A program made the position numbers and the translations under genes. A stretch of DNA of 32,641 bases from Flexibacter flexilis DSM 6793. Lineage in GTDB: Bacteria; Bacteroidota; Bacteroidia; Cytophagales; Flexibacteraceae. Under the pieces are notes generated by a model. The model made no database searches. It saw only the letters and a list, made by a program, of their open reading frames with translations, and had not been told where the DNA came from. The stretch covers positions 1 to 32,641 of the forward strand of contig NZ_FOLE01000017.1 in NCBI RefSeq assembly GCF_900112255.1, in the 5' to 3' direction. Within the stretch, counting starts at the first letter, position 1; each line of letters begins with the position of its first letter. Of the stretch, positions 8,348 to 32,641 are shown one piece after another.

Positions 8348-8378
8348 TCTCATTAAATCACAAAAATATTTGCACACA

Positions 8379-10535
8379 ATGGAACTTCAAAAATTTAGTT
8401 ACGACAACCGAATCGTTAAGTTATTTTCGATTGCGACAGTCGTTTGGGGTTTGGTGGGTATGCTTGTGGGGCTTATCATTGCAACACAACTTTTTGTACC
8501 TGCACTAAACTTTGGTGTGGCCTATACTACTTTTGGCCGTATCCGTCCGCTGCATACCAACGCAGTGATTTTTGCGTTCGTGGGTAATGCGCTGTTTGCA
8601 GGCATTTATTACTCCATGCAACGTTTGCTCAAAGCACGTATGTTTTCAGATGCCTTGAGCAGCATTCACTTTTGGGGCTGGCAGCTTATCATCGTGGCTG
8701 CTGCTGTTACGCTTCCTTTGGGTCTTACTACTTCTCACGAATACGCAGAGTTGGAGTGGCCTATCGATATTGCCATTACACTTATTTGGGTAGTGTTCGG
8801 TATCAACATGATAGGTACGATTATCAAACGCCGCGAAAAACACATGTATGTGGCGATTTGGTTCTACATCTCTACTTTCGTAACGGTGGCGGTGCTACAC
8901 ATCGTAAACTCTTTCGAAGTGCCTTTGAGTTTATTTAAAAGCTACTATGTTTACGCTGGTGTACAAGATGCTTTGGTACAGTGGTGGTATGGCCACAACG
9001 CGGTGGCGTTCTTCCTTACTACGCCTTTCTTGGGTTTGATGTATTACTTCATTCCTAAAGCTTCTAACCGTCCCGTATATTCGTACAAACTTTCGATTAT
9101 CCACTTCTGGTCTTTGATTTTCATTTATATCTGGGCTGGTCCTCACCACTTGTTGTATAGTGCCTTGCCAGACTGGGTACAAAGCTTGGGTACTGTATTC
9201 TCTATCATGTTGATTGCGCCAAGCTGGGGTGGTATGCTTAACGGCTTGCTTACTTTGCGCGGTGCTTGGGACAGAGTACGCGAAGATGCAGTATTGAAAT
9301 TCATGGTAGTAGCGGTAACGGCTTACGGTATGGCTACTTTTGAAGGCCCAATGCTTTCTTTGAAAAACGTAAACGCCATTGCTCACTTTACTGACTGGAT
9401 TCCTGCACACGTACACGTAGGTGCATTGGGCTGGAACGGTTTCTTGACTTTCGGTATGCTTTATTATTTGATACCAAAAATGTGGCGTACTGAATTGCAC
9501 AGCAAAAAATTAGCAAACGTTCACTTCTGGTTGGGTACAACTGGTATCATGTTCTATGCTTTGCCAATGTACTTCGGTGGTTTCGTACAAAGTATGATGT
9601 GGAAACAATTTACACCAGATGGTTACTTGCAATATCCAAACTTCTTGGAAACAGTAGTACAACTTATTCCAATGTATGCTTTGAGAGCTTTGGGCGGTTT
9701 GTTGTATTTCATTGGTGTAATCGTGATGACTTACAACCTTTTGAAAACGGCTGGTGCTGGTAGCTTCTTGGCCGATGAGCCTGCTGAAGCTCCTGCTTTG
9801 TCGCCAGTAAATCACCCAGGCGAAAAATGGCACTCTGTATTGGAACGCAAACCTGTTACTTTCACAGTGTTGGCTTTGGTTGCTATTTTGATTGGTGGTG
9901 CTATAGAAATGGTTCCTACTTTCCTTATCAAAAATAACATTCCAACGATTTCTTCTGTAAAACCATATACGCCACTTGAGTTGGTTGGTCGCGATTTGTA
10001 TATCCGTGAAGGTTGCGTGAACTGTCATAGCCAAATGGTTCGTCCGTTCCGCTCAGAAACCGAACGTTATGGCGAATACTCTAAAGCGGGTGAATTTGTT
10101 TATGACCACCCATTCCTTTGGGGTAGTAAACGTACTGGTCCAGATTTGCACCGTGTGGGTGGCAAATACCCAGACAGCTGGCATTACAACCACATGTTAG
10201 ACCCAACGACGATGTCTCCAGGTTCTATCATGCCTTCTTATCCTTGGTTGTTTGATCAAACAATTGATGCTACAAACATCGCTGCCAAACTTGAAATTAT
10301 GCGCAAATTGGGTGTTCCGTATTCTGATGATGCAGTGGCTACTGCTCCTGAAAATATGAAAACACAAGCCAATGGCATCGTTCAAAGCCTTGCTAAAGAT
10401 AAAATTCAAGTAAATGCAGATGCTGAAATTGTTGCTTTGATTGCTTATCTACAACGTTTGGGTACAGATATCAAAAACAAATCGGCAGAAGAGATGGCTG
10501 ACGACGCTGGTTTGTCTGATGCAGCTGCACAATAA
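8379..10535 (+). CDS. ccoNO: cbb3-type cytochrome c oxidase, fused subunits I and II (CcoN-CcoO)
   Basis: The 718-aa protein joins the haem-copper subunit CcoN to the c-type cytochrome CcoO. CcoN part (1 to about 465): low-spin haem ligand H59 (LHTNAVIF), CuB ligands H206 (YGHN) and H256-H257 (GPHH), and haem ligands H344 and H346 (PAHVHV), within about twelve membrane helices. CcoO part (about 495-718): one anchoring helix, then the haem c motif CVNCH at 546-550 and an axial Met candidate at 618 (GSIMPSYPW). It reduces O2 to water with high affinity and pumps protons in the inner membrane. The fusion is usual in Bacteroidota. I chose ATG 8379; the TTG at 8370 in frame has no support. First gene of the cco operon. 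Confidence 0.95.
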   Translation: MELQKFSYDNRIVKLFSIATVVWGLVGMLVGLIIATQLFVPALNFGVAYTTFGRIRPLHTNAVIFAFVGNALFAGIYYSMQRLLKARMFSDALSSIHFWGWQLIIVAAAVTLPLGLTTSHEYAELEWPIDIAITLIWVVFGINMIGTIIKRREKHMYVAIWFYISTFVTVAVLHIVNSFEVPLSLFKSYYVYAGVQDALVQWWYGHNAVAFFLTTPFLGLMYYFIPKASNRPVYSYKLSIIHFWSLIFIYIWAGPHHLLYSALPDWVQSLGTVFSIMLIAPSWGGMLNGLLTLRGAWDRVREDAVLKFMVVAVTAYGMATFEGPMLSLKNVNAIAHFTDWIPAHVHVGALGWNGFLTFGMLYYLIPKMWRTELHSKKLANVHFWLGTTGIMFYALPMYFGGFVQSMMWKQFTPDGYLQYPNFLETVVQLIPMYALRALGGLLYFIGVIVMTYNLLKTAGAGSFLADEPAEAPALSPVNHPGEKWHSVLERKPVTFTVLALVAILIGGAIEMVPTFLIKNNIPTISSVKPYTPLELVGRDLYIREGCVNCHSQMVRPFRSETERYGEYSKAGEFVYDHPFLWGSKRTGPDLHRVGGKYPDSWHYNHMLDPTTMSPGSIMPSYPWLFDQTIDATNIAAKLEIMRKLGVPYSDDAVATAPENMKTQANGIVQSLAKDKIQVNADAEIVALIAYLQRLGTDIKNKSAEEMADDAGLSDAAAQ

Positions 10536-18058: not shown

Positions 18059-18081
18059 TATATTTGCCTTCTGTATATTTG
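18059..18081 (+). promoter_or_regulatory. Two tandem TATATTTG -7-like elements before the MORN-repeat gene
   Basis: TATATTTG occurs at 18059-18066 and again at 18074-18081, both fitting TAnnTTTG. The second lies only 9 bases before ATG 18091, so if used it would give a nearly leaderless mRNA; the first is the better candidate. No convincing -33 element. Confidence 0.4.
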
Positions 18082-18090
18082 CTTATTCCC

Positions 18091-19863
18091 ATGACGAGAA
18101 TAAAATTTTTGATTTTGGTTTGGCTGGTGCTGCCGTTTGCATTGCAAGCACAATATTCTTTTTTACCCGAAACCGCTTGGACAGCCGAAGGCAAAACCCT
18201 TGCAGGCAAAAAGGAAGGAACTTGGCGTTATTTTGATGCCAGTAAAGTGTTACGTTTGCTAATTAATTATAAATCAGATGCTTATTACGGTCAATGCGTG
18301 AGCTATACGCCTGCGGGTGTGGTGGCTTGCGAAGCCGAATTTGTGTCGGGTTTCCGCAATGGCCGTTATAAAGAAAATTACCCAGACGGCAAGCCGCAAC
18401 TCAATACGATGTATATGCTCAATGAGTTGGAAGGAGAATATACAGCGTATTATCCCAACGGGAATATCTCGGAAAAAGGTCGCTACAAAGATAGCATTCG
18501 TACCGACGAATGGACGACTTATTACCAAGATGGCAAACGCCGCACGAACGGTTCTTACTATAATGGTCTGCCCGACGATGTTTGGACGTTTTATTACAAA
18601 AATGGCCAAGTACAACGCCGAGAAGAGTGGGATAGAGGCTTGATTTTGAATGTATTGGAACTGAATACCGAACAAGGAAAGAAACTGGAAGCTGGCACGC
18701 TGCGCGAAGGAAACGGCACGATTAAGCAATATTCGCCCGAAGGCGTGTTGTTGGCCGAACGTACTTGTACTAATGGCGTGGTGTCGGGCAAGGCGTTTAC
18801 CTACACGGACAAAGGCAAGGTGAAAACCGAAGTCATGTACGTGAAAGGCAAGCGACAAGGTACGATGAAAGAGTTTGACGCCAGCGGCAATGTAATCGGC
18901 CAAGTGCAATACATCGACGACAAGGAAGAAGGCGCGAGCAAAGAGTTTTATCCGTCGGGGAAAGTGGCCGCACAAGGTTTTTACAAAGATGGCGAAGAAG
19001 ACAGCACTTGGACGGAATACTACGAAACAGGCGAGACCATGTCCAAAACTTCCTACAAAAAAGGAGAGCCAGACGGCAAATGGACGCAGTATTTTGTGAG
19101 CGGACAAATCGCCACGCAAGGCAGCTATAAGGCAGGTAAAAAAGATGGTTTGTGGCAGATTTTCTATGAGTCGGGCAAAGTATATGAGACTGGTAATTTT
19201 GTAAATGGCAAAAAATCAGGCACTTGGAAAACCTATTACGATAACGGGAAACTCATGTCGGAAGGCAGTTTTGCGGATGGTTATGCCGATGGCATTTGGA
19301 AAAAATATCACCCCAACGGCAAAAAAGAGTCGGAAGGCCGCATGGTCGGCGGCTTGGAAACAGGCTTGTGGCGCGAATACACCGAAAGCGAAGTGTTGAT
19401 TTCGGAAGGAAACTACAACAAAGGCGCGGAAGATGGTGTTTGGAAAAGTTTTTATAAAAACGGCAAAGTGATGCAAGAAGAAACTTGGCAAAACGGCAAA
19501 TTAGTGTCGGTGGGCGAGTTGCTTTCTGCATCGGGCAAACCACTGGACAAAGGTACGTTCAAGGACGGAAACGGCACGCGCAAACAATATCACCAAAACG
19601 GCAAATTGATGTCGGAAGGCGAATATGCGGCAGGCGTTCAGACGGGAACTTGGAAATTTTACCACGACAACGGCAAACTTGCGGGACAAGGTGCGTTTCG
19701 CAGCGGCAGCCGCGACGGGCTTTGGAAATTCTATGATATAAAGGGACGAATAGAGTCGGAAGGATATTACATCAACGACGAAGCCGACGGCCTTTGGAAG
19801 TATTATGACGCAAAAGGCAAAGTTCGTCAGACGCTTAGCCTCAAAGAACCCGAAACCCGCTAA
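18091..19863 (+). CDS. Secreted MORN-2/YwqK-type repeat protein
   Basis: The 590-aa protein starts at ATG 18091; an upstream in-frame TTG at 18064 overlaps a promoter-like element and is rejected. Residues 1-20 are a signal peptide (FLILVWLVLPFALQAQ). The rest is about 21 tandem repeats of roughly 23 residues with the pattern G-x-W-x-x-(Y/F)-Y-x-x-G-K, for example GTWKTYYDNGKLMSEG. Such MORN_2 repeats form long beta-ribbons. The label 'YwqK antitoxin' on relatives does not imply a toxin-antitoxin role here, and no toxin gene is adjacent. Probably a periplasmic or surface scaffold; function unknown. Confidence 0.85.
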   Translation: MTRIKFLILVWLVLPFALQAQYSFLPETAWTAEGKTLAGKKEGTWRYFDASKVLRLLINYKSDAYYGQCVSYTPAGVVACEAEFVSGFRNGRYKENYPDGKPQLNTMYMLNELEGEYTAYYPNGNISEKGRYKDSIRTDEWTTYYQDGKRRTNGSYYNGLPDDVWTFYYKNGQVQRREEWDRGLILNVLELNTEQGKKLEAGTLREGNGTIKQYSPEGVLLAERTCTNGVVSGKAFTYTDKGKVKTEVMYVKGKRQGTMKEFDASGNVIGQVQYIDDKEEGASKEFYPSGKVAAQGFYKDGEEDSTWTEYYETGETMSKTSYKKGEPDGKWTQYFVSGQIATQGSYKAGKKDGLWQIFYESGKVYETGNFVNGKKSGTWKTYYDNGKLMSEGSFADGYADGIWKKYHPNGKKESEGRMVGGLETGLWREYTESEVLISEGNYNKGAEDGVWKSFYKNGKVMQEETWQNGKLVSVGELLSASGKPLDKGTFKDGNGTRKQYHQNGKLMSEGEYAAGVQTGTWKFYHDNGKLAGQGAFRSGSRDGLWKFYDIKGRIESEGYYINDEADGLWKYYDAKGKVRQTLSLKEPETR

Positions 19864-19955: not shown

Positions 19956-20825
19956 TTACTCTTTTAAATTTCGTAGTTGTTCTATTTGTTCAACGGTTAG
20001 GCCTGTTGCTTTTTCTATAAAATTGTTATCAGAACCTAATGAAATTAAGTTTTTGGCAATCATACTTTTCTCATCTTTCCTTACTTTGTCCTCTGCCTCT
20101 ACTTTCAGCGAAAGAGCTTCACTTGCTTTTACGTGCAAATAATCCAAGTAACGACTGTAGCCGTATTGCTGTTCCTTGTCCAAACGCATAATGTCCAACA
20201 CTTCTTTTGCCTCTGATAATCCTTTTGCCCTGAACTCGTCTTTTACTTCACTGTTTTTGAGGAAGTAAACCCACTCGTCCAGCGTATCTTTTGCTACATC
20301 ATCGAATTGATTGACTTTGATAATGTAGTATTCAGGGAAAATATCCGAAACATTTTGTTTCGTAAAAGTTTCTTTTTGCTTGCTTGAAAGTTGCAAAAGG
20401 TCTTTTTCGTGCAAGCCTTGGAAACTTGTAACTCCTTTATAAACATAATCTTTACCCTGTCCCAAGTCAAAATAAACGATATTGATAGAAATTACTTTTT
20501 TGATTTCAGCATAAGGTTGCCCTAAACTCAAATTTTCAGTCAAAGCCTTTGAAGCACCATAAGCCATACGATGGAAATAATCGATTTCGTAGGTATTTTG
20601 AATTTCTACAATAACTAATTCATTTTTAGAATTTTGTGTTAAAATATCTATGCGGTTATACTTGTCCTCGTCTGTTTCTTGATTGCTTTCACTTTCCAAA
20701 ATCTTCTGGATTTTGATGTCTTCAAACAAAAGTTCTGACAAAAAGCCCTCTAAAACAACAAAGTTAGCCTTGTTACGAAGTAGTTTTTTTACTGCCCAAT
20801 CAAAACGAATTAGCTTTTTGCTCAT
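19956..20825 (-). CDS. Rpn/PD-(D/E)XK nuclease-family 'transposase' protein
   Basis: The 289-aa protein matches the PD-(D/E)XK family related to Rpn recombination-promoting nucleases. The opening (RFDWAVKKLLRNKANFVVLEGFLSELL split at 7-33) is the usual family start, and the nuclease core is at 57-77 with D60, E74 and Q76 (RIDIL, then VEIQN). A Lys/Glu-rich C-terminal region ends in the common IAKNLISLG and TGLTVEQIEQL helices (residues about 257-285). It should cut DNA with Mg2+. Despite the transposase name, such genes often move only passively. It has AT-rich codons and is bracketed by two identical 30-nt palindromes. Lone ORF with its own promoter. Confidence 0.85.
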   Translation of the reverse strand: MSKKLIRFDWAVKKLLRNKANFVVLEGFLSELLFEDIKIQKILESESNQETDEDKYNRIDILTQNSKNELVIVEIQNTYEIDYFHRMAYGASKALTENLSLGQPYAEIKKVISINIVYFDLGQGKDYVYKGVTSFQGLHEKDLLQLSSKQKETFTKQNVSDIFPEYYIIKVNQFDDVAKDTLDEWVYFLKNSEVKDEFRAKGLSEAKEVLDIMRLDKEQQYGYSRYLDYLHVKASEALSLKVEAEDKVRKDEKSMIAKNLISLGSDNNFIEKATGLTVEQIEQLRNLKE

Positions 20826-21111: not shown

Positions 21112-22659
21112 CTAGTTCTTATATGTTGTATTACAATAGGGATGAGTTAACTGTCCATTGTCTGCACTTCCTTTGCCTCCGTCTTCTTTTCTAGTAATGT
21201 GGTCGATGGTCATTGCATTTTTATGGATAAATCCATCGCATATTCCGCATCTTAGACCATTTTTAATTGCTTCTTTAATAAAAACTTCAGATTTAGATTC
21301 AGTAGTGAAATTATTAAATATCTCCTTTTCTTCTGTGAGTGCAGAGAGCGTTAAGTAATTAAATTTAGGAAGTTTAATTATTTCATCTACAGATTTATTA
21401 ATGTCGAGGTTTTGACTTAATAAATTCATCATTTCTATATATAAGTCTACTACATGAGGAATTGCAGCATATGCTCCCCTGTACTTTCTGGTCATTTGTT
21501 GAATTAAATAGTCATAATTCAACAAAAAATCTTCAAACTTTCTTCGAACCTTAATAAAATCATTGTATTTATTTTTTTTATCGAGTTCCTTAATGAAAGC
21601 CAAAGTATAATAGAAAGAGGCTGGTTTATGCTTGCCTTCATTTGAATAAAAATAAACTATCGGATGAAGTCCTAATGAAGAAGGATGAACGCTGTTAATC
21701 CTCCATGCAATTTTTCTTGCACTTTTAAGATATTTAATAGTTTCAGAGCCATCTAAATCGTCTGCTAAAGTTTCAGAAAAATCAGGTCCGATATTATTTG
21801 TGGAATTTACAAATTCGAGAATTAAGGGTAAACTTTGTGCAGAAACTAGTTTGCCACCAAGAGGAATATCTAGTGTTTTAACGGGTGTTTTTAATGTAGG
21901 ATTATATATTATTTCATGTATTTCTTTAGATAGCTTTTGAATTTCAGCCTGCGTCTCTGCGGAAAAATCAGACCAATATTTATGCCCTTGACCTCCGCGA
22001 ATAATTGCACGAGCAGCGATGCAATTTCCTTTTTTTCTTGACTCTAAAATTTTCAATTCAGTCGGGTCAATTTTTGAAGGCTGTTGGTTGATTTTAAAAA
22101 ATGATTTTTCGGCCTTTTTTGCATCACCATCCACCCATTGAACCTGAATTGAATATGCACCTAAATTTTTTGCCTTTTGAATTAATGCTTCATTTGGTTT
22201 TTCTTTATTAGGAGCCTCAATAATATCAATATAACGTCCAATTTTTTTATTGATTAAACTTCTCGTCTTTTCTGCAATTTCTTTATGCTCGTCACTTATA
22301 CTGTCACCATAAAATTTCTTCGAAATTTCTCCATCTCCATAGTCGTCTTTTATCCAACTAATTAAAGCACTCAATCTATGTGCACCATCAATAACAAAAT
22401 ATAGTCCTGAATTATTACGCCAAAGAATTATTGCTGGAATTAATTCTCCGTTGATATAACTTTCTATAAATTCAAGAATTTTTTTTGCGTCCCATTCATT
22501 AGTCTCTCTTTGAAAGTCTGGTTTTCTTAGGAAAGGGTAAAAAAAACCTCCTGTGAAGTTTGATATTGAAATTGAATTAAAGAGGTTCATTGAGTTTTGG
22601 TTTCCGATTACCTCAAAATCTTCTCTCGGAATTATTGCGTCTAAGTTTACTTTTGCCAT
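21112..22659 (-). CDS. DUF262/DGxHR-like domain plus C-terminal HNH endonuclease
   Basis: The 515-aa protein has a ParB/Srx-like N-terminal domain with FQRE at 49-52 and DGAHRLSAL at 91-99 (compare DGQxR of DUF262 and DGQHR of DndB relatives), then SFFKINQQPSKIDPTEL near 187-203. A helical middle follows. The last 45 residues are an HNH zinc module: C471 and C474 (CGIC), D486-H487 (IDHI), N501, H506 and C509 (HPYC). The layout recalls GmrSD/SspE-type nucleases that sense modified DNA and cut it, though this one has a classical HNH instead of DUF1524. It is likely a stand-alone restriction or defence effector. No methylase or partner enzyme is nearby. Confidence 0.8.
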   Translation of the reverse strand: MAKVNLDAIIPREDFEVIGNQNSMNLFNSISISNFTGGFFYPFLRKPDFQRETNEWDAKKILEFIESYINGELIPAIILWRNNSGLYFVIDGAHRLSALISWIKDDYGDGEISKKFYGDSISDEHKEIAEKTRSLINKKIGRYIDIIEAPNKEKPNEALIQKAKNLGAYSIQVQWVDGDAKKAEKSFFKINQQPSKIDPTELKILESRKKGNCIAARAIIRGGQGHKYWSDFSAETQAEIQKLSKEIHEIIYNPTLKTPVKTLDIPLGGKLVSAQSLPLILEFVNSTNNIGPDFSETLADDLDGSETIKYLKSARKIAWRINSVHPSSLGLHPIVYFYSNEGKHKPASFYYTLAFIKELDKKNKYNDFIKVRRKFEDFLLNYDYLIQQMTRKYRGAYAAIPHVVDLYIEMMNLLSQNLDINKSVDEIIKLPKFNYLTLSALTEEKEIFNNFTTESKSEVFIKEAIKNGLRCGICDGFIHKNAMTIDHITRKEDGGKGSADNGQLTHPYCNTTYKN

Positions 22660-24901: not shown

Positions 24902-26491
24902 TTAGTAAGTAATATGGACGGTAGTGCCTTTGCCCTCATCGCTCACGAATCGGATGTCAATTTTACTTTGTTTCACGATTTGCCCCATGATGTACAGCCC
25001 CATGCCGTTGCCTTCTTCTTGTGCCGTGCCTTTCTCCGAAATGACGGCATCTTTGAGTAAAGTATTAAGTTTTTTGGTCGGAATTCCTGCGCCAAAGTCC
25101 TGAATAGCAAATCCTTCTGATGTATTGAAAAGAATAATTTCACCTTGATAATGGCTGTATTTAATGGCATTGCTCAGTATATTGTAGAGAATAATGCGCA
25201 GCTTTTCGGGCGAAATGGGTACTTCTGTCAGTTCTGTGGTTTGATTAATAACGGTTAATTCTTTGCTCTCAATTTTGGTATGTAAATCTCGGAGTACGTT
25301 GGTGAGTGCGGGGAAAAGCATGGCTGTATTTTGTGCATTACTTTTTCGAATTTCCAGTAGGCTGGTCAGGATGTGATTGACCGAAGAGATTTGTTGTTCC
25401 AAGCTCTGCGAGACTTGCACCATGATTTTGTCCTGAATATTGAGCTTTTTGAGCAGCAGTTTCACGGCCAAAAGCGGCTCTTTGATGTCGTGGGAAATGA
25501 TGCTAATTACCTGCTCATTTACTTTGTATTGTTGCGTAATGGTTTTGTTTTGTTGTTTTACTTTGAAATAAAGAAACATAAAAACGGCTCCTCCCGAAAC
25601 GAGTACGGCCACTATGAATATCAGAAATACTTGTGCTTGTTTTTGAGTTTTAATTTCGAGGTCTTTGCGTTCTATGGCGTATTTTTGCTCTACGTTCGAG
25701 ATTTTGCCCAAATACTTGTATTCGTTGTATGCGTCGTGTAGCGAATCCGTTTTTTTGAGGAAAAAGAAGGCCTCTTCGTATTTTTTCTCTCTTTCAAAAC
25801 AATGTTGCATGGCGTGGTTCATGTACATGGTATATTTGAGAATCTTGCAGCTATCGGCATTTTTTATCCCTAAACGATAGATTTCATACATTTTCTCGAT
25901 GTCATTCTTTTGCCCATACAGCTCAATCATTTTGCCGTAAATCATGGGCAAATCGCAGGGGCTGGATTCTTGGACAAGCTGCGCGGCTAATTGGTAACGT
26001 TTCTCGGCGGCTTCATAATTTTGGTTTTGCATGAGCATAAAGGCCTCAAGACTAATGATTTTGCCTGTATGCTCTTTATCCAAATGCTTATAATGGCTGT
26101 TGCTGAGCAGGAGCATCAGCGAGTCGGAGGCTTTATAATTTTGCCTATCGAACATCGCAAATGCTCGCTGACAAGTAATATTGGCTTGGTAATATTCTGG
26201 GTTGTGGGTGCGCAAACCAAAATACAGTGCTGAATCTAAGTGTACTAACGTTGATTTATAATCAAATAACCGTTTGTATGTATAAGACATATACAGGTGG
26301 CCATAATACCTGTCCGAATCACTTGCGTTGTGGTGCAAAAAATGGTTGAGCAACGCAAAGGAAGAGTCGTATTGTGCGTTATTGTTCAGATTATATACTT
26401 GTTGTTCGGTCAGTAGCGCCTTTTTCGACTGACCATAACTGACCCGCATCGAGCAAATAAGAATGCTAATAGACAAAAGAAGGAAGCGCAT
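24902..26491 (-). CDS. Membrane sensor histidine kinase with TPR sensor (copy A)
   Basis: The 529-aa protein starts at ATG 26491 (MRFLLLSISIL). A longer frame from 26707 reads through the end of the neighbouring kinase and is rejected. Layout: signal peptide 1-20; periplasmic TPR-like helical repeats 25-280; membrane helix about 287-308; short coiled linker; dimerisation domain with H334 (SHDIKEPL); ATP-binding domain with N441 (NAIKYS), D465 (DFGAGIP) and GNGMGLY at 494-500. The protein ends directly after the ATPase fold, with no receiver domain. Third gene of a response regulator-kinase-kinase operon, 67 bp after copy B. Stimulus unknown. Confidence 0.9.
   Translation of the reverse strand: MRFLLLSISILICSMRVSYGQSKKALLTEQQVYNLNNNAQYDSSFALLNHFLHHNASDSDRYYGHLYMSYTYKRLFDYKSTLVHLDSALYFGLRTHNPEYYQANITCQRAFAMFDRQNYKASDSLMLLLSNSHYKHLDKEHTGKIISLEAFMLMQNQNYEAAEKRYQLAAQLVQESSPCDLPMIYGKMIELYGQKNDIEKMYEIYRLGIKNADSCKILKYTMYMNHAMQHCFEREKKYEEAFFFLKKTDSLHDAYNEYKYLGKISNVEQKYAIERKDLEIKTQKQAQVFLIFIVAVLVSGGAVFMFLYFKVKQQNKTITQQYKVNEQVISIISHDIKEPLLAVKLLLKKLNIQDKIMVQVSQSLEQQISSVNHILTSLLEIRKSNAQNTAMLFPALTNVLRDLHTKIESKELTVINQTTELTEVPISPEKLRIILYNILSNAIKYSHYQGEIILFNTSEGFAIQDFGAGIPTKKLNTLLKDAVISEKGTAQEEGNGMGLYIMGQIVKQSKIDIRFVSDEGKGTTVHITY
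25350..25525. repeat. Kinase dimerisation-domain block, copy A
   Basis: This 176-bp stretch matches 27007-27182 at all but about five positions. The part 25404-25498 is identical to 27061-27155 over 95 bases. It encodes the phospho-acceptor helix pair of both kinases, whereas the sensor parts are much more divergent. Confidence 0.9.
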
Positions 26492-26558
26492 GATGATTGT
26501 TTCGAATAACGCGCAATGTAATAAGTTAAGTTTAAATGTAGTGGTGGTGGCAGTGTTT

Positions 26559-28154
26559 TTAATATATGATATGAACGGTAGTCCCTTTCCCTTCTTCACT
26601 AATAAATCGAATTTCAATTTTGCTTTGTTTGGTAATTTGTCCCATGATGTAAAGTCCCATCCCGTTGCCTTCTTCTTGTGCCGTTCCTTTTCCCGAAACG
26701 ACGGCATCTTTCAACAACGTGTTTAGTTTTTGGGCGGGTATTCCTATCCCAAAATCTTGAATAGCAAAGCCTTGTGCTGTATTAAACAAATGGATTTGGC
26801 CTTGATGGTGGCTGTATTTGATGGCATTGCCTAGCAGATTATACAAGATAATGCGAAGTTTTTCGGGAGAGATGGGTACTTGTGTCGCCTCCGTGATTTC
26901 ATTAACAATGGTAAGTTCTTTGTTTTGGATTTTGGTGTCCAAATCTTTGATTACGTTGTTAAGAATGGGCCAGAGTGTAGCGGTATTTTGTGTGTTATTC
27001 TTTCTTATTTCCAGTAGGCTGGTAAGAATGTGATTGACCGAAGAGATTTGTTGCTCCAAACTCTGCGAGACTTGCACCATGATTTTGTCCTGAATATTGA
27101 GCTTTTTGAGCAGCAGTTTCACGGCCAAAAGCGGCTCTTTGATGTCGTGGGAAATAATGCTAATTACCTGCTCATTTACTTTCTGCTGTTGTTGGATGAT
27201 GCGATGTTGTTGTTTTAATTTAAGATAAAGCCAAATGAATATTAGAATAGCCGAGACTAAAATCAGTACAATGGTTAATAAGTATTTTTGTTGTTTTTCT
27301 TGTGTGGCAATTTCTACGTCTTTGCGTTCGATTTCGTTGCTTTGGTTTAATTCTTTGATTTGGTGTTGATAACCGCGCTCATCGTATATGTAAAAAAAGG
27401 AGTCGTATAGTTTGATGTAATAAAAGGCCTCTGCATATTTTTTGTGCACTTCAAGTTCGCGATACATGATCAAGTTAAGATAAACCTTGTATTTGAGGAT
27501 GTTACAAGAGTCTGCATAGTGCATTCCTTTTTCATAAACCTTATACATATTCGGTATGTGATTGGTTTGGCTGTACAAACCAATCAGTTTACCATAAATC
27601 AAGGGCAAATCACACGGATTGGATTGCCTGAGAAGGGGAAGGGTTTGCAAATATTTTTGCTCGGCCTGTTTGTATTGCTTTTTTTGGTATAGCAGGTATG
27701 ATTCTTGTGTCAGTATCTTGGCTTTATTTTCATCGTCGAGGTACTGATAATGAGATGAAATAAGCGGTTGCATCAGCGAATCAGCGGCTCTGTATTGCTG
27801 CACATCAAACATGGCAAATGACTTTTGGCAAAGAATATTCATTGTATAATATTGGGGCTTTTCTGTTTGCAACCCCCAATAGAGTGCCGAGTCTAAATGA
27901 ATCAATACAGCCTTATAATCATAAATACGCTTACTTGTATATGATAAATACAAATATGCGTAGTATCGATCTGTATTCGTAGTGTTAGGCCTATTTAGAA
28001 AATGCCGAATTAAGGCAAACGAAGAGTCGTATTGATAATTATTGTTTAGATTATATACTTGATTTTCAATTGATAACACCTCTTTAGACTGACTATATGC
28101 TAATCGCGCCACTAAAGTTAGAAAGAAGATTAGGGTAAATTGTACCAGACGCAT
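26559..28154 (-). CDS. Membrane sensor histidine kinase with TPR sensor (copy B)
   Basis: The 531-aa paralogue of copy A starts at ATG 28154 (MRLVQFTLIFFL); a Met 13 codons upstream is less likely because it puts a polar segment before the signal peptide. Layout: signal peptide 1-21, TPR-like repeats 27-282, membrane helix about 290-312, dimerisation domain with H336 (SHDIKEPL), ATP-binding domain with NAIKYSH, DFGIGIP and GNGMGLY. Residues 325-385 are identical to 323-383 of copy A, while the sensor regions are only about half identical. It lies 48 bp after the response regulator gene. Both kinases probably signal to that regulator. Confidence 0.9.
   Translation of the reverse strand: MRLVQFTLIFFLTLVARLAYSQSKEVLSIENQVYNLNNNYQYDSSFALIRHFLNRPNTTNTDRYYAYLYLSYTSKRIYDYKAVLIHLDSALYWGLQTEKPQYYTMNILCQKSFAMFDVQQYRAADSLMQPLISSHYQYLDDENKAKILTQESYLLYQKKQYKQAEQKYLQTLPLLRQSNPCDLPLIYGKLIGLYSQTNHIPNMYKVYEKGMHYADSCNILKYKVYLNLIMYRELEVHKKYAEAFYYIKLYDSFFYIYDERGYQHQIKELNQSNEIERKDVEIATQEKQQKYLLTIVLILVSAILIFIWLYLKLKQQHRIIQQQQKVNEQVISIISHDIKEPLLAVKLLLKKLNIQDKIMVQVSQSLEQQISSVNHILTSLLEIRKNNTQNTATLWPILNNVIKDLDTKIQNKELTIVNEITEATQVPISPEKLRIILYNLLGNAIKYSHHQGQIHLFNTAQGFAIQDFGIGIPAQKLNTLLKDAVVSGKGTAQEEGNGMGLYIMGQITKQSKIEIRFISEEGKGTTVHIIY
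27007..27182. repeat. Kinase dimerisation-domain block, copy B
   Basis: Partner of 25350-25525 in the same orientation, 1657 bp away: about 97% identical, with a 95-base exact core at 27061-27155. Confidence 0.9.
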
Positions 28155-28202
28155 AGATGGATGTTGGAAATATGCTACAAGTATAGTAAACAAAATGCAA
28201 AA

Positions 28203-28799
28203 TTACATTTTTAAATACCCCATTTGTAGTAGTCGCAAGGCAAGTTCTGTGGAATTAGTACAATCGAACTTGGCCAGCAAATGACTTTTCTGGTTGTTGA
28301 TGGTATTGACGGATGTATTGGTGAGCAATGCTATTTCTTTGGAGGCTAATCCTTTGGCCAAATAGCGTGCTATTTCGTGTTCTTTGGGTGTGAGTTGTGG
28401 TGGTACAATTTCAGGAGTGTATTGTTTTTTATATCGTTCGTTCAGGTACACCAACTCAATGGCTTCCCATAGTTTCTCTAATGGTTCTTTTTTGTTCACA
28501 AAAGCCATGACACCATATTCAAACAAAAATTGCTTGACAAAATCGCTATGAATGCTGCTGTAAGCTACCACTTTAAGAGGCAGCTTCATTTTCTGAATTT
28601 CTTCAAAAAGACTCAAACCAATTTCTTCGTCGGTGAGTACGTCAGAGATAAGTAAGTCAATTTCTTTATTATTTTTAATCGTCTCGATTACAGTGTTTTT
28701 ATGGGTATAAGTGCCTATTACGTGCGCTCCTTTTGCCCGCAAAAAGGTCGATATCGAATCTAATACAAATTGATGGTCGTCGAAAAGTATAATATTCAT
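28203..28799 (-). CDS. NarL/LuxR-type response regulator
   Basis: The 198-aa protein starts at ATG 28799 (MNIILFDDHQFV); a start 12 codons earlier overlaps the promoter and is rejected. Receiver domain: D7 and D8, phospho-acceptor D53 (LLISDVL), S81/S82 and K103 (FVNKKEP). LuxR-type helix-turn-helix at 136-193: LTPKEHEIARYLAKGLASKEIA, split here as residues 136-157, then TSVNTINNQKSHLLAKF. It is the first gene of the operon with the two kinases, which are its likely partners. In Bacteroidota such regulators often control surface or stress genes; the divergent giant adhesin gene at 29019 is a possible target, by position only. Confidence 0.92.
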   Translation of the reverse strand: MNIILFDDHQFVLDSISTFLRAKGAHVIGTYTHKNTVIETIKNNKEIDLLISDVLTDEEIGLSLFEEIQKMKLPLKVVAYSSIHSDFVKQFLFEYGVMAFVNKKEPLEKLWEAIELVYLNERYKKQYTPEIVPPQLTPKEHEIARYLAKGLASKEIALLTNTSVNTINNQKSHLLAKFDCTNSTELALRLLQMGYLKM

Positions 28800-28820
28800 G
28801 TTGCGGTATTTTTGTGTTAG

Positions 28821-28851
28821 CAAAATTAGATACACCGTTTATGCTTCGCAA
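28821..28851 (-). promoter_or_regulatory. Promoter of the response regulator-kinase operon
   Basis: On the minus strand a TTG (28851-28849) is followed after 20 bases by TAATTTTG (28828-28821), a close match to the Bacteroidota -33/-7 arrangement, 22 bases before ATG 28799. This is the clearest promoter in the window. Confidence 0.65.
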
Positions 28852-29018: not shown

Positions 29019-32000
29019 ATGAAAAAAAGAATAACTGATTGGTGGCGGGGTGCAACAATAGTAGCTCTTTTGCTTTTAATGACATTTTTTACCAATCACA
29101 TTACTTATGGACAAGGCAATGTTACTGGTTGGGGTTATAATGGCACTAGCCAACTTAATACTCCCGCAGGACTGACGAGTGTGGCAGGTATTGCGGCAGG
29201 CTATGGGCATAGTGTAGCCCTGAAAAATGATGGAACTGTCGTGGTTTGGGGTTATAATGGTAGCGGCCAAGCCAATATTCCTGCTGGTTTAACAAATGTA
29301 ACCGCTATTGCCGCAGGCGTTTATCACACGATAGCCTTGAAAAGTAACGGTACAGTAGTAGGCTGGGGAAGTAATAGTTTTGGTCAAACGAGTGTTCCTG
29401 CAGGTTTAACAAATGTAGTGGCTATTGCTGCATCAGGCTATTATAGCATAGCTCTGAAAAGTGACGGCACTATAGTGGGTTGGGGGGATAATGGTTCTGG
29501 ACAAATAAGTATTCCCGCAGGCTTAACGGGGGTAAAAGCCATTGCCGCAGGGCTTGGCCATGTTTTAGCCTTAAAAAATGATGGCACTGTAGTGGGTTGG
29601 GGAAATAATAGCGATGGACAAATAAGTATTCCCGCAGGCTTAACGGGGGTAAAAGCCATTGCCGCAGGAGATTTGCATAGCGTAGCCCTAAAAACAGATG
29701 GAACAGTGGTGGGTTGGGGATATAATGGCAGTGGTCAGATAAGTATTCCTGCTGGCCTAGCCAATGTAACCGCTGTTTCTGCCGGGAATTATCATACGGT
29801 AGTTTTAAAAAGTGATGGAACGGTAGCAGCTTGGGGAAGTAATAGTTATGGGCAAACCAACATTCCTGCAGGACAGGCGGGCGTAACAGCTATTAGCGCA
29901 GGGAATTTGCACAATTTAGTAATCATAGGTACTGCTTCCGCTCCAACATTATCCCTTTCACAGGCCAGTTGGTACCCAACTGCGGCAGGCAGTACCCAAA
30001 ATATTACGGTGAGTAGTAATGCAGCTTGGACGGCAAGCAGCAATGCAAGTTGGCTTACGATAAGTCCGAGCAGTGGTAGTGGCAATGGCTCATTTTTACT
30101 TACTGTCGCTGCCAATACGCAAGAAGCTAATCGTACTACGGTTGTCATAGTCAAGACGGGAAGCCAAACAAAATATGTTTTTGTAACTCAAAATGGCATA
30201 GGTGGTCGCGTAACAGCTTGGGGTATTGGTACTGATAATGCACCTGAGACTGCATTGACAGGAGTTACAGCGATTTCAGCGGGTGCTGGTAATAACTTAG
30301 CCCTAAAGAATAATGGCACGGTTGTGGGTTGGGGTGATAATAGTTATGGCCAATCCACTGCACCCGTTGGCCTTACAGGCGTAGTGGCAGTGGCGGCAGG
30401 GCAATTCCACACCTTAGCCCTAAAATCCGACGGAACGTTGGTGTCTTGGGGTAGAAATATTGAAGGCCAAACTAATATTCCTGCGGGCTTGACGGGTGTA
30501 GTTGCCATTACAGTAGGAGCATTTCACTCTGTGGCCGTCAAAAATGATGGCACGGTGGTAGCTTGGGGATATAATGGTCAGGGACAAACCAACGTTCCTG
30601 TGGGGCTTACAGGTGTAATAGCTGTTTCGACAAATGGAAGACATACGGTAGCCCTGAAATCGGACGGCACGGTGGTGTCTTGGGGCTGGAATAGTGCTGG
30701 GCAAAACAATATTCCTATTGGTCTTACGGGCGTAGTAGCGATTGCGGCAGGATTTGAACATAATGTAGCTCTGAAAGCAAACGGCACGGTAACGGCTTGG
30801 GGGGAGAATGAAGATGGCCAAACTACTATTCCTGCGGGTCTAACGAACGTAACAGCGATTACGGCGGGGTATAGTCACACTGCAGTAATTAAAAATGACG
30901 GCACGGTAACGGCTTGGGGGCAGAATGAATATGGCCAAACTACTATTCCTGCGGGTCTAACGAACGTAACAGCGATTTCGGGTGGGAGTACTTATAACTT
31001 AGTGATTTTGCCTTCCTGCCCAACGGTTACACTTTCACCAAGCACATTGAGCAATGTTACACAAGGTGCGACATACTCGGCTACATTGTCTCAAACGGGT
31101 CTTGCTTCTGCAACTTTCTCTGTTACTAGTGGTTCATTGCCAGCAGGTTTGAGCCTTTCGAGTGCAGGTACATTGAGTGGTACGCCAACGGTAAATGGTA
31201 CTTTTAACTTTACGGTTACCGCTACGGATGGTACTTGTTCGGGCAGCAAGGTATATAGTTTTAAAATATGTCCAGTTATTACGGACTTTGGTCAAAGCAT
31301 AGGAGGAACTGCTCCGACAAAATCAGGTTTTACCTACAAAGGTAGCTATAATAACAAATGGTATTATTTGTCTAATAGCACTATCTCTTGGAAAAATGCA
31401 CGTACGGCTTGTCAAAATGCGAGTGGTAATTTGGTGATAATTAATGATGCGGCAGAGAATAGCTATGTGAGTAGCTTAATGAGTAGCGGCAATTATTTAT
31501 TGATAGGCTTAAATGATGAAGTTAGCGAAGGTTCATGGAAATGGGTAGATGGCACATCATTAGGTAGTTATACGAACTGGAACTCAGGCGAGCCGAATAA
31601 CTCACCGTCAGCATGTTCTCCAGGAGGAACTGGCGAAGATTTTGTTCAGTTGGCAACGAGTACAGGAAAATGGAACGATACGCCAGACGATTGGACTGTA
31701 TGTGGATTTACAAATCCTTATGCGGTATTGGAACTGCCACAAATAATGTCGGTGTCGTACCCGTCGAGTGTAGCACAAGGTGGAGTAGCGAAGATAAAAT
31801 TGTACCGTCCACAACCAAATATAAAATATACGTTGCTTTCAAACGGTTCTCCCGTATCAAGCCAAAAAACGACGAGTGCAGATACTTTGATATTTAGTAC
31901 AGGTGCTTTGACGACGGTTAATACCTATACGTTTTTGGCCACCGATACAGTGAGTGGTTGTTCAAAGACACTGAATGCGACGATGACCATTTCAATTATT

Positions 32001-32641
32001 TGCCCAACGGTTACACTTTCACCAAGCACCTTGAGTGCAGGCACGCAAGGTGCGGCTTATTCTGCTACATTGTCTCAAACGGGACTTAGCTCGGCGACTT
32101 TCTCTGTTACTAGTGGTTCATTGCCAGCAGGTTTGAGCCTTTCGAGTGCAGGAGCATTGAGTGGTACTCCAACAGTAAACGGTACCTTTAATTTTACGGT
32201 AACAGCAGCCGATGGTACTTGTTCGGGTAGCAATGCTTATAGTTTGGTGGTGAATACAGTGATTACGCCTCCAGGCATAGTGCCAGATTTGATCGTTGGT
32301 GCTAGAGCAACGAAGGTATTATGGACTTTATCCCCATCCGACTATGATTATGTACAAATACAATGCCGTCTGGAAGGCGCCTCATGGCCTCCCACTTCGG
32401 TGTCATTGGCAACAAGTCAGCATGTAGCGTATCGTTATGTTGAAATGTTGCCAAGCAGTAACTATAACATTAGGTTTAGAGCGCGTAGCACCTCAGGACA
32501 GGACTGGTCGGCATGGGAAACAATGAATCTAACGACCTCGAGTACACCGACCTGTTCCCCTATCTCTCCAGTTATCGTGACACCAGGAGGAACCGGAGCT
32601 CGATTTGACTGGTCATCTTACACCACCAATACCTACATTTA
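29019..32641 (+). CDS. Giant secreted double RCC1-propeller / BACON / C-type lectin / FN3 protein, 3' end cut by the window edge
   Basis: The frame opens at ATG 29019 and runs 1207 codons to the edge without a stop. Residues 1-32 hold a signal peptide (VALLLLMTFFTNHITYGQ). RCC1 repeats of exactly 39 residues follow: Trp of the WG motif at 38, 77, 116, 155, 194, 233 and 272. A BACON domain lies at about 308-393 (AAWTASSNASWLTISPSSG). A second RCC1 set has Trp at 401, 438, 477, 516, 555, 594 and 633. Two putative-Ig (He_PIG) domains lie at about 666-748 and 996-1077 and a C-type lectin domain at about 770-907, with EPN at 858-860 and WND at 885-887. FN3 follows at about 1085-1173, and a second FN3 begins in the sequence shared with the left edge. 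Probably a T9SS-exported, sugar-binding surface adhesin. Confidence 0.9.
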   Translation, partial: MKKRITDWWRGATIVALLLLMTFFTNHITYGQGNVTGWGYNGTSQLNTPAGLTSVAGIAAGYGHSVALKNDGTVVVWGYNGSGQANIPAGLTNVTAIAAGVYHTIALKSNGTVVGWGSNSFGQTSVPAGLTNVVAIAASGYYSIALKSDGTIVGWGDNGSGQISIPAGLTGVKAIAAGLGHVLALKNDGTVVGWGNNSDGQISIPAGLTGVKAIAAGDLHSVALKTDGTVVGWGYNGSGQISIPAGLANVTAVSAGNYHTVVLKSDGTVAAWGSNSYGQTNIPAGQAGVTAISAGNLHNLVIIGTASAPTLSLSQASWYPTAAGSTQNITVSSNAAWTASSNASWLTISPSSGSGNGSFLLTVAANTQEANRTTVVIVKTGSQTKYVFVTQNGIGGRVTAWGIGTDNAPETALTGVTAISAGAGNNLALKNNGTVVGWGDNSYGQSTAPVGLTGVVAVAAGQFHTLALKSDGTLVSWGRNIEGQTNIPAGLTGVVAITVGAFHSVAVKNDGTVVAWGYNGQGQTNVPVGLTGVIAVSTNGRHTVALKSDGTVVSWGWNSAGQNNIPIGLTGVVAIAAGFEHNVALKANGTVTAWGENEDGQTTIPAGLTNVTAITAGYSHTAVIKNDGTVTAWGQNEYGQTTIPAGLTNVTAISGGSTYNLVILPSCPTVTLSPSTLSNVTQGATYSATLSQTGLASATFSVTSGSLPAGLSLSSAGTLSGTPTVNGTFNFTVTATDGTCSGSKVYSFKICPVITDFGQSIGGTAPTKSGFTYKGSYNNKWYYLSNSTISWKNARTACQNASGNLVIINDAAENSYVSSLMSSGNYLLIGLNDEVSEGSWKWVDGTSLGSYTNWNSGEPNNSPSACSPGGTGEDFVQLATSTGKWNDTPDDWTVCGFTNPYAVLELPQIMSVSYPSSVAQGGVAKIKLYRPQPNIKYTLLSNGSPVSSQKTTSADTLIFSTGALTTVNTYTFLATDTVSGCSKTLNATMTISIICPTVTLSPSTLSAGTQGAAYSATLSQTGLSSATFSVTSGSLPAGLSLSSAGALSGTPTVNGTFNFTVTAADGTCSGSNAYSLVVNTVITPPGIVPDLIVGARATKVLWTLSPSDYDYVQIQCRLEGASWPPTSVSLATSQHVAYRYVEMLPSSNYNIRFRARSTSGQDWSAWETMNLTTSSTPTCSPISPVIVTPGGTGARFDWSSYTTNTYI
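29498..29551 (+). repeat. 54-bp exact tandem repeat within the first RCC1 array, unit 1
   Basis: Identical to 29615-29668, spaced 117 bp (one 39-residue repeat). It shows recent repeat duplication or conversion inside the array. Confidence 0.9.
29615..29668 (+). repeat. 54-bp exact tandem repeat within the first RCC1 array, unit 2
   Basis: Partner of 29498-29551. A similar near-identity joins the last two units of the second array (around 30813-30860 and 30930-30977). Confidence 0.9.
31113..31168 (+). repeat. 56-bp exact repeat in the first He_PIG domain
   Basis: Identical to 32097-32152. The surrounding ~240 bp of the two putative-Ig domains are clearly similar but less conserved. Confidence 0.9.
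32097..32152 (+). repeat. 56-bp exact repeat in the second He_PIG domain
   Basis: Partner of 31113-31168, 984 bp away; encodes TFSVTSGSLPAGLSLSSAG. Confidence 0.9.
32540..32641. repeat. Right arm of the 102-bp terminal inverted repeat of the window
   Basis: Exact reverse complement of 1-102; see the left arm. Both copies are in coding sequence, in the same reading frame of two different proteins. Confidence 0.95.

Follow-up and report, generated by a model that had tools for sequence, protein, structure and literature searches.

The end of a 32,641-nucleotide stretch of DNA from Flexibacter flexilis DSM 6793 (contig NZ_FOLE01000017.1, forward strand; hereafter the window) encodes a large protein in which two seven-bladed propellers, joined by a BACON domain, are followed by a C-type lectin domain. 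The ATG at 29019 opens a + strand frame that continues to 32639 (1207 codons, no stop), and since this frame is still open two bases before the contig end and the window spans the whole contig (C17:1-32641), the gene is cut. The domain order comprises a signal-peptide-like stretch, propeller 1, BACON, propeller 2, a He_PIG domain, the C-type lectin, a second He_PIG domain and a module resembling fibronectin type III (fn3-like), all on the + strand. The presence of two propellers, a BACON domain and a C-type lectin, as reported in an initial annotation of the window, is confirmed. That annotation described the repeats and the lectin exactly, but it was incomplete, having missed the signal-peptide-like stretch, both He_PIG domains, the fn3-like module, the truncation of the gene and a likely C-terminal tail for the type IX secretion system (T9SS). 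We consider the protein to be, with a probability of about 0.6, a T9SS-exported modular surface adhesin, with one calcium-dependent lectin head, two propeller discs that likewise act as binding heads, and Ig-like spacers.

Two propellers and a C-type lectin in one protein

Propeller 1 (29115..29945, about residues 33-309) and propeller 2 (30204..31010, about residues 396-664) were each delineated by Pfam, the spacing of tryptophan-glycine (WG) pairs, modelling and fold matches. The WG pairs are found at residues 38, 77, 116, 155, 194, 233 and 272 in the first set, every step being 39 residues, and at residues 401, 438, 477, 516, 555, 594 and 633 in the second, where a first step of 37 is followed by steps of 39. 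The initially reported pattern of seven WG on each side of the BACON domain, with 39-residue steps and one of 37 opening the second set, was thus exact. WG pairs spaced by 39 residues number 11 in the whole frame and 6 in set one, compared to at most 1 in shuffles of set one (n=2000), and a chance origin of the spacing is excluded. The frame matched Pfam RCC1_2 at 5e-119. In a phmmer comparison with the PDB, BLIP-II was the top match both for the whole frame (E 3.9e-46) and for propeller 1 alone (E 2.2e-48). At the DNA level the blades share a mean identity of 65% in propeller 1 and 58% in propeller 2, with 81% for the top pair, and exact repeats of at least 30 bases occur between blades. A duplication of a whole propeller was considered and is not claimed: the likeness between blades of the same index was reached by 149 of 5040 permutations using all seven blades, but by 37 of 120 using the inner five.

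Residues 28-667 were modelled with AlphaFold2 (AF2) from an alignment that combined the window protein with eleven stretches of propeller-linker-propeller type, taken from four further loci. The model had a mean predicted local distance difference test (pLDDT) of 81.9 and a predicted template modelling score (pTM) of 0.49, with the propellers mostly at pLDDT 80-97. Each half consists of a leading strand, six three-strand triples and a final pair, and as the first strand completes the last blade, each ring is predicted to close at seven three-stranded blades. The earlier proposal of two complete seven-bladed propellers, against which a failure of predicted structures to close would have counted, is thereby supported for both halves of the model. 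Foldseek and VIA-align 2 both placed BLIP-II first. Propeller 1 superimposed on BLIP-II (1jtd_B) with Z 40.4 and a root mean square deviation of 1.3 (265/273 aligned, 43% identity, model residues 3-277), and propeller 2 matched the RCC1-like domain of HERC2 (4l1m_C; Z 30.1, 269 aligned, model residues 368-639).

The initial name of "RCC1 propeller" holds for the superfamily and for the number of blades, but not for the blade itself. RCC1, UVR8 and the RCC1-like domains of HERC proteins share the seven-bladed RCC1 superfamily fold (Z about 30-34), but the canonical RCC1 blade of eukaryotes is longer and four-stranded, whereas the blades modelled here are predicted to be three-stranded, at 39 residues. 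As BLIP-II is the closest solved fold, the label "BLIP-II-type propeller" fits better. BLIP-II (PDB 1jtd, 3qhy, 3qi0, 9t9p) likewise has seven three-stranded blades and WG repeats of near-equal length, and a review describes its propeller as having seven blades, each of three antiparallel strands (PMC6121496). It is however a stand-alone inhibitor, whereas the two propellers studied here are part of a long multidomain protein and carry mostly other residues at the variable positions. A survey of highly repetitive propellers ranks RCC1/BLIP-II third among the groups of its set by population, which places the present protein among known things (PMC9218822).

The variable positions were located by calculating entropies over 504 distinct 39-residue units (WG to the next WG exactly 39) from 80 related loci. 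Entropy was highest at repeat positions 25 and 26 (3.75 each), the two residues preceding the blade histidine. Within the protein itself, using 11 of its 14 units (7, 8 and 14 being omitted as end or shortened units), position 25 ranked first (3.10), position 6 second (2.85) and position 26 third (2.66). In the phmmer alignments, positions 25-26 correspond to Y73/F74 and W152 of BLIP-II (1jtd_B, numbering 39-311), which we take to be contact residues for beta-lactamase. The pairs read YG, VY, GY, LG, DL, NY and NL in propeller 1, and YF, NY, AW, VY, IF, EW and PN in BLIP-II as derived from the alignment; VY and NY, two of the seven pairs of propeller 1, are found in both. On this basis, the propeller faces are proposed to bind something.

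The C-type lectin domain (31332..31685, residues 772-889 by a hidden Markov model (HMM) built here, with a final strand to about residue 905) scored 60.1 bits with Pfam Lectin_C (cut-off 22.6) and is the one Lectin_C match in its genome. A model of residues 766-905, based on an alignment with 16 relatives, reached a pLDDT of 91.1 and a pTM of 0.86, and its 50 best structural matches were all C-type lectin domains (Z 17.9-19.6), including collectins, SP-D, MBP, DC-SIGN, Endo180 and ASGR. The EPN and WND motifs already recognized were confirmed at residues 858-860 (31590..31598) and 885-887 (31671..31679) by alignment with Endo180. Glu873 (31635..31637) can be added as a further putative calcium ligand, being matched to a Glu in Endo180 (C-type mannose receptor 2) and invariant across the lectin alignment. 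Together, E858, N860, E873, N886 and D887 have matching counterparts in the second carbohydrate-recognition domain (CRD) of Endo180, at positions that presumably are the calcium ligands in animal CRDs. The combination of EPN, Glu and WND is the pattern of a mannose-type calcium/sugar site in animal CRDs, and as judged from its residues the domain carries this pattern. Both the motif residues and the predicted C-type fold support the earlier assignment as a calcium-dependent, mannose-type lectin. Fold and calcium-ligand positions are shared with Endo180 CRD2, the mannose receptor, DC-SIGN, SP-D, collectins and bacterial EPN/WND lectins. The motif is ordinary in the phylum, as 63 lectin-domain rows (fragments plus the query, from the first 60 fetched regions) contained EPN in 30 cases and EPN with WND in 26. 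When compared to viral structures, the lectin model matched, where named, mostly C-type lectins of animal viruses at low identity; the lectin-domain query gave 87 pattern matches and no relative among the collected genome contigs.

The BACON domain between the propellers (29955..30197, about residues 313-393) was above the Pfam cut-offs of both BACON (39.5 bits, cut-off 25) and BACON_2 (37.5 bits, cut-off 25), and a genome scan returned a single BACON match (44.4 bits), in this frame. Two He_PIG Ig-like domains, detected by Pfam and by an HMM built here, lie at 31005..31268 (about residues 663-750) and 32001..32255 (about residues 995-1079), and about 100 residues without a Pfam match separate the lectin from the second. 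The fn3-like module (32301..32537, about residues 1095-1173) was matched by an HMM built here, with Pfam fn3 and Ig_Rha78A_N below cut-off, while the homologous module in a paralogue on contig C6 was over the Pfam cut-off. Residues 1-32 (29019..29114) form a putative signal peptide, judged by eye from a basic stretch followed by a hydrophobic one, with cleavage near TYG/QG. The two He_PIG copies are near repeats of each other (31017-31292 and 32001-32276), alike in 77 of 92 residues and 225 of 276 bases, the longest exact run being 56 bases. They flank the lectin together with the residues that follow it, and such repeats could permit recombinational gain or loss of the lectin cassette.

Recurrence of the layout in other genomes

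A scan of the genome collection with the propeller part gave at least 589 stretches, at least 574 of them relatives, and the best 80 of these, which span many phyla, were kept. They comprise 94 frames with at least five units, of which 49 have at least 13. Splitting at unit gaps of more than 25 residues resulted in 239 repeat blocks, with seven units as the commonest size (n=71); neighbouring 7-7 pairs numbered 26, and the linker measured 88-98 residues in 11 of them. As the 80 loci are those that best matched a query with two propellers, these double-propeller counts are biased upward. A seven-bladed propeller, a domain of about 90 residues and another seven-bladed propeller follow each other in an uncultured Verrucomicrobia (L161), an uncultured Acidobacteriia (L162) and a Candidatus Hydrogenedentes (L169), the linkers of L162 and L169 being Ig domains (Ig_3/I-set, Pfam). 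These arrays differ from the present protein in having no BACON linker and more propellers, and no lectin was found in those frames. The propeller-Ig-propeller layout is thus recurrent, and the protein of F. flexilis can be described as such a layout in which BACON forms the joint and a lectin follows. BACON over cut-off and RCC1 repeats were found in one protein only in this gene among the examined loci, a count that is a lower bound, as an RCC1 protein in L144 has a Pfam BACON match below cut-off (20.3 vs 25 bits) which the BACON HMM built here missed.

Lectin_C matched at E <= 0.001 in 28 of the 390 genomes scanned for the order and in 27 of the 395 scanned for the phylum (the query genome being in both); RCC1_2 was found in 74 of the 390 genomes of the order. 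Every listed Lectin_C place outside the window was fetched and RCC1 repeats were sought in the same frame, using an HMM derived from the 14 repeats of the F. flexilis protein. In two genomes, 11 of 12 (G593) and 11 of 14 (G662) lectin candidates were scored, and four fetched frames were shorter than those reported by the search (5207 of 5803 residues in L122, 5229 of 6686 in L132, 3165 of 4436 in L134 and 4728 of 5394 in L251), so that an RCC1 block outside them could escape. Across loci L100-L262 and the query, considering frames of at least 150 residues, 122 had RCC1 repeats, 71 a lectin match and 4 both. These four are the query, L124 (from G662, same phylum), L173 (a Roseiflexaceae metagenome-assembled genome, MAG) and L185 (a Verrucomicrobia MAG), and Pfam confirmed RCC1_2 and Lectin_C in the latter three. 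The lectin is C-terminal to the propellers in L173, as in the query, but comes first in L124 and L185, and all three are without BACON (Pfam, E 0.001) and without the 7-BACON-7 arrangement.

The initial annotation knew of no described protein with this exact order and suggested a domain-architecture search, and indeed the order was not encountered elsewhere among the examined loci. The novelty it implied is weaker, as propellers and a C-type lectin are combined in the three proteins above. Searches of the open-licence literature yielded no paper on C-type lectins and RCC1 in Bacteroidetes, on a domain architecture with both RCC1 repeats and a C-type lectin, or on a Bacteroidetes C-type lectin domain with type IX secretion, and the available parts of PMC9166713 and PMC12602537 contained nothing bearing on the architecture. 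Each domain is of a known kind, and the protein is modestly new: within the loci and literature covered, the exact order is the only new element. This order alone changes little; the finding is real but not surprising.

Contig break, likely export and proposed role

Matches to the final 150 bases of the contig lie at several contig ends. A 111-base stretch (32531..32641, + strand) is 99% identical to bases 1-111 of the same contig on the opposite strand, 148 bases match the right end of C6 at 87%, and a 71-base match of 83% identity is found close to the start of C5, the start of C18 and the end of C2. C5 and C18 encode an identical 181 residues, from the first base to a stop, and C2 has a 181-residue frame; TIGR04183 scored 47.1 bits alike in C2, C5 and C18 in the genome scan. 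The C5 piece scanned alone gave TIGR04183 at 44.6 bits and, below cut-off (26.8 vs 30), Pur_ac_phosph_N, presumably of fn3-like fold. The simplest reading is that a repeated fn3-like/T9SS C-terminal module broke the assembly, with three gene fronts leading in and three ends leading out. As all three candidate continuations (C2, C5, C18) carry TIGR04183, a T9SS tail very likely terminates this gene as well. The near-identical C-terminal module seems to be common to three large proteins.

TIGR04183 has 118 matches in the genome, and a T9SS-type tail (HMM built here) ends 13 of 18 RCC1 frames in the propeller loci fetched for the order, a set that includes the genome of F. flexilis itself. The protein also resembles THC0290_2385 of Flavobacterium psychrophilum in its RCC1 repeats and its likely TIGR04183 tail; that RCC1-repeat TIGR04183 protein was present in the wild-type surfome and not detected in gldD or gldG mutants (PMC5682007). 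Export of the F. flexilis protein is on these comparisons likely.

In the proposed adhesin, the signal peptide would direct the protein to the periplasm, from where a type A sorting domain encoded beyond the contig end would lead it through type IX secretion to the cell surface. The lectin would bind calcium via E858, N860, E873, N886 and D887, and thereby a sugar of the mannose, fucose or N-acetylglucosamine type. On one face, each propeller would present a ring of variable residues, two from every blade (positions 25-26), as a binding site for a protein or other ligand, and the BACON, He_PIG and fn3-like domains would serve as spacers keeping the binding heads apart.

Several observations weigh against this interpretation. 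Animal CRDs usually carry conserved cysteine pairs (disulfides), and in contrast to the animal EPN/WND lectins, the present protein, which is bacterial, does not conserve them: most of the usual positions hold residues other than cysteine, with a Leu at the last-strand position (alignment, by eye). The fold alone does not settle the sugar, since the top structural matches include ASGR and MGL, which are galactose-type CRDs. The protein's own T9SS tail lies beyond the contig end, where the joining piece is missing and any of three exits may be its continuation. Owing to the low pTM (0.49), the relative orientation of the two propeller discs is not predicted, and the BACON stretch of the AF2 model is largely at pLDDT <50, the alignment partners having other domains there. 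In the available portions of the open-licence BLIP-II literature, no ligand of such propellers was found besides beta-lactamase.

A more tentative extension of the adhesin reading is a surface receptor of two specificities, in which the propellers would be evolvable binding discs, with two hypervariable residues per blade at the BLIP-II grip site, and the lectin would recognise a glycan; the protein would then be one draw from a widespread repertoire of non-antibody scaffolds. In this equally tentative picture, seven-blade discs would serve as cassettes that are exchanged between Ig-like spacers in many phyla. For BLIP-II against TEM-1, the Ki is in the picomolar range (PMC6121496). The interest of the protein, which is bacterial and probably secreted, lies in its union of BLIP-II-type propellers with the mannose-type motif of a C-type lectin. 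Should the variable ring of these widespread bacterial propellers prove to be a general binding face, a large number of unstudied surface proteins could be tested as binders.

We regard it as unlikely that the propellers are mere stiff spacers, forming a fourteen-blade stalk with the lectin as the sole binding head. Long arrays of Ig-joined seven-blade propellers in other phyla would suit a stalk, but the concentration of the strongest variation at two adjacent repeat positions suits a binding face over a plain rod. Moreover, a lectin is present in only two RCC1 frames of the best 80 propeller loci, and arrays exist without one. Somewhat more doubtful is a carbohydrate-gathering scaffold whose BACON and lectin domains bind polysaccharide and feed a system for sugar uptake or degradation. 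The protein does have a lectin domain, and BACON is a predicted carbohydrate binder, but the review that tells of this prediction also states that the BACON domain of BoGH5A bound none of the tested substrates (PMC9853417). Also against a scaffold, the 13 window frames scanned with Pfam, which include this gene and belong to 55 listed with at least 80 residues, gave no match to a glycan-degrading enzyme such as a glycoside hydrolase, to SusC or to SusD.

A role like that of BLIP-II, as a secreted inhibitor of beta-lactamases or of the penicillin-binding proteins of rivals, seems very improbable, even though no solved structure comes nearly as close as BLIP-II (E 3.9e-46; Z 40.4), which shares the VY and NY pairs with propeller 1. 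The remaining variable pairs of propeller 1 differ from those of BLIP-II, the attached lectin and likely surface anchoring are ill-suited to a diffusible inhibitor, and the relatives are widespread, with at least 574 stretches and the best 80 across many phyla. An assembly artefact fusing pieces of different repeat genes can practically be dismissed: the contig does break in this gene at a sequence common to other genes, and exact runs occur between the He_PIG copies (56 bases) and between blades (at least 30 bases), but most blades differ in their DNA (mean identity 65% and 58%, top pair 81%), and the genome's single Lectin_C match and single BACON match both fall in this frame.

Neighbouring genes and viral lectins

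Upstream and divergent from the propeller-lectin gene, the window encodes a LuxR-type response regulator (28203-28835) and two histidine kinases (26559-28193 and 24902-26707), which may regulate it. Further from the gene, 18064-19863 holds a 599-residue frame of MORN_2 repeats (225.5 bits, seven stretches), adjoining a PDDEXK_2 transposase-type gene (19956-20825) and a GmrSD_N/HNH gene (21112-22659). An oxidase gene at 8370-10535 has COX1 and FixO fused in one frame (721 aa).

C-type lectins with EPN and WND, at most 54% identical to the lectin of the window, are also encoded by phages (L263-L320, IMG/VR contigs; L321, NC_055915.1 3692-18027), and no RCC1 repeats were found in the 58 viral lectin loci. 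A T9SS-type sorting domain is present in another frame of the locus in 38 of the 58 (HMM built here), and Pfam confirmed it in four of four loci scanned (L263, L291, L294 and L314), finding a cohesin domain as well in L263, L294 and L314, not in L291. In the isolated Flavobacterium phage immuto_2-6A, the lectin is encoded as gp013, and gp015 combines a cohesin (36.7 bits) with Por_Secre_tail (34.6 bits, cut-off 27). The viral lectin frames examined begin signal-peptide-like, and a weak dockerin match (0.0029) was obtained in L301. The scanned viral lectin and cohesin frames fell into no PHROGs family, the sole match among ten frames of L263 and L294 being of endolysin type. A phage may display its lectin on the host via the host T9SS and a cohesin-dockerin pair. 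In L301-L309, L311 and L313-L319, the C-type lectin match is split in two pieces; in L301, the one that was scanned, Laminin_G_3 lies between the pieces, as if inserted whole into the lectin.

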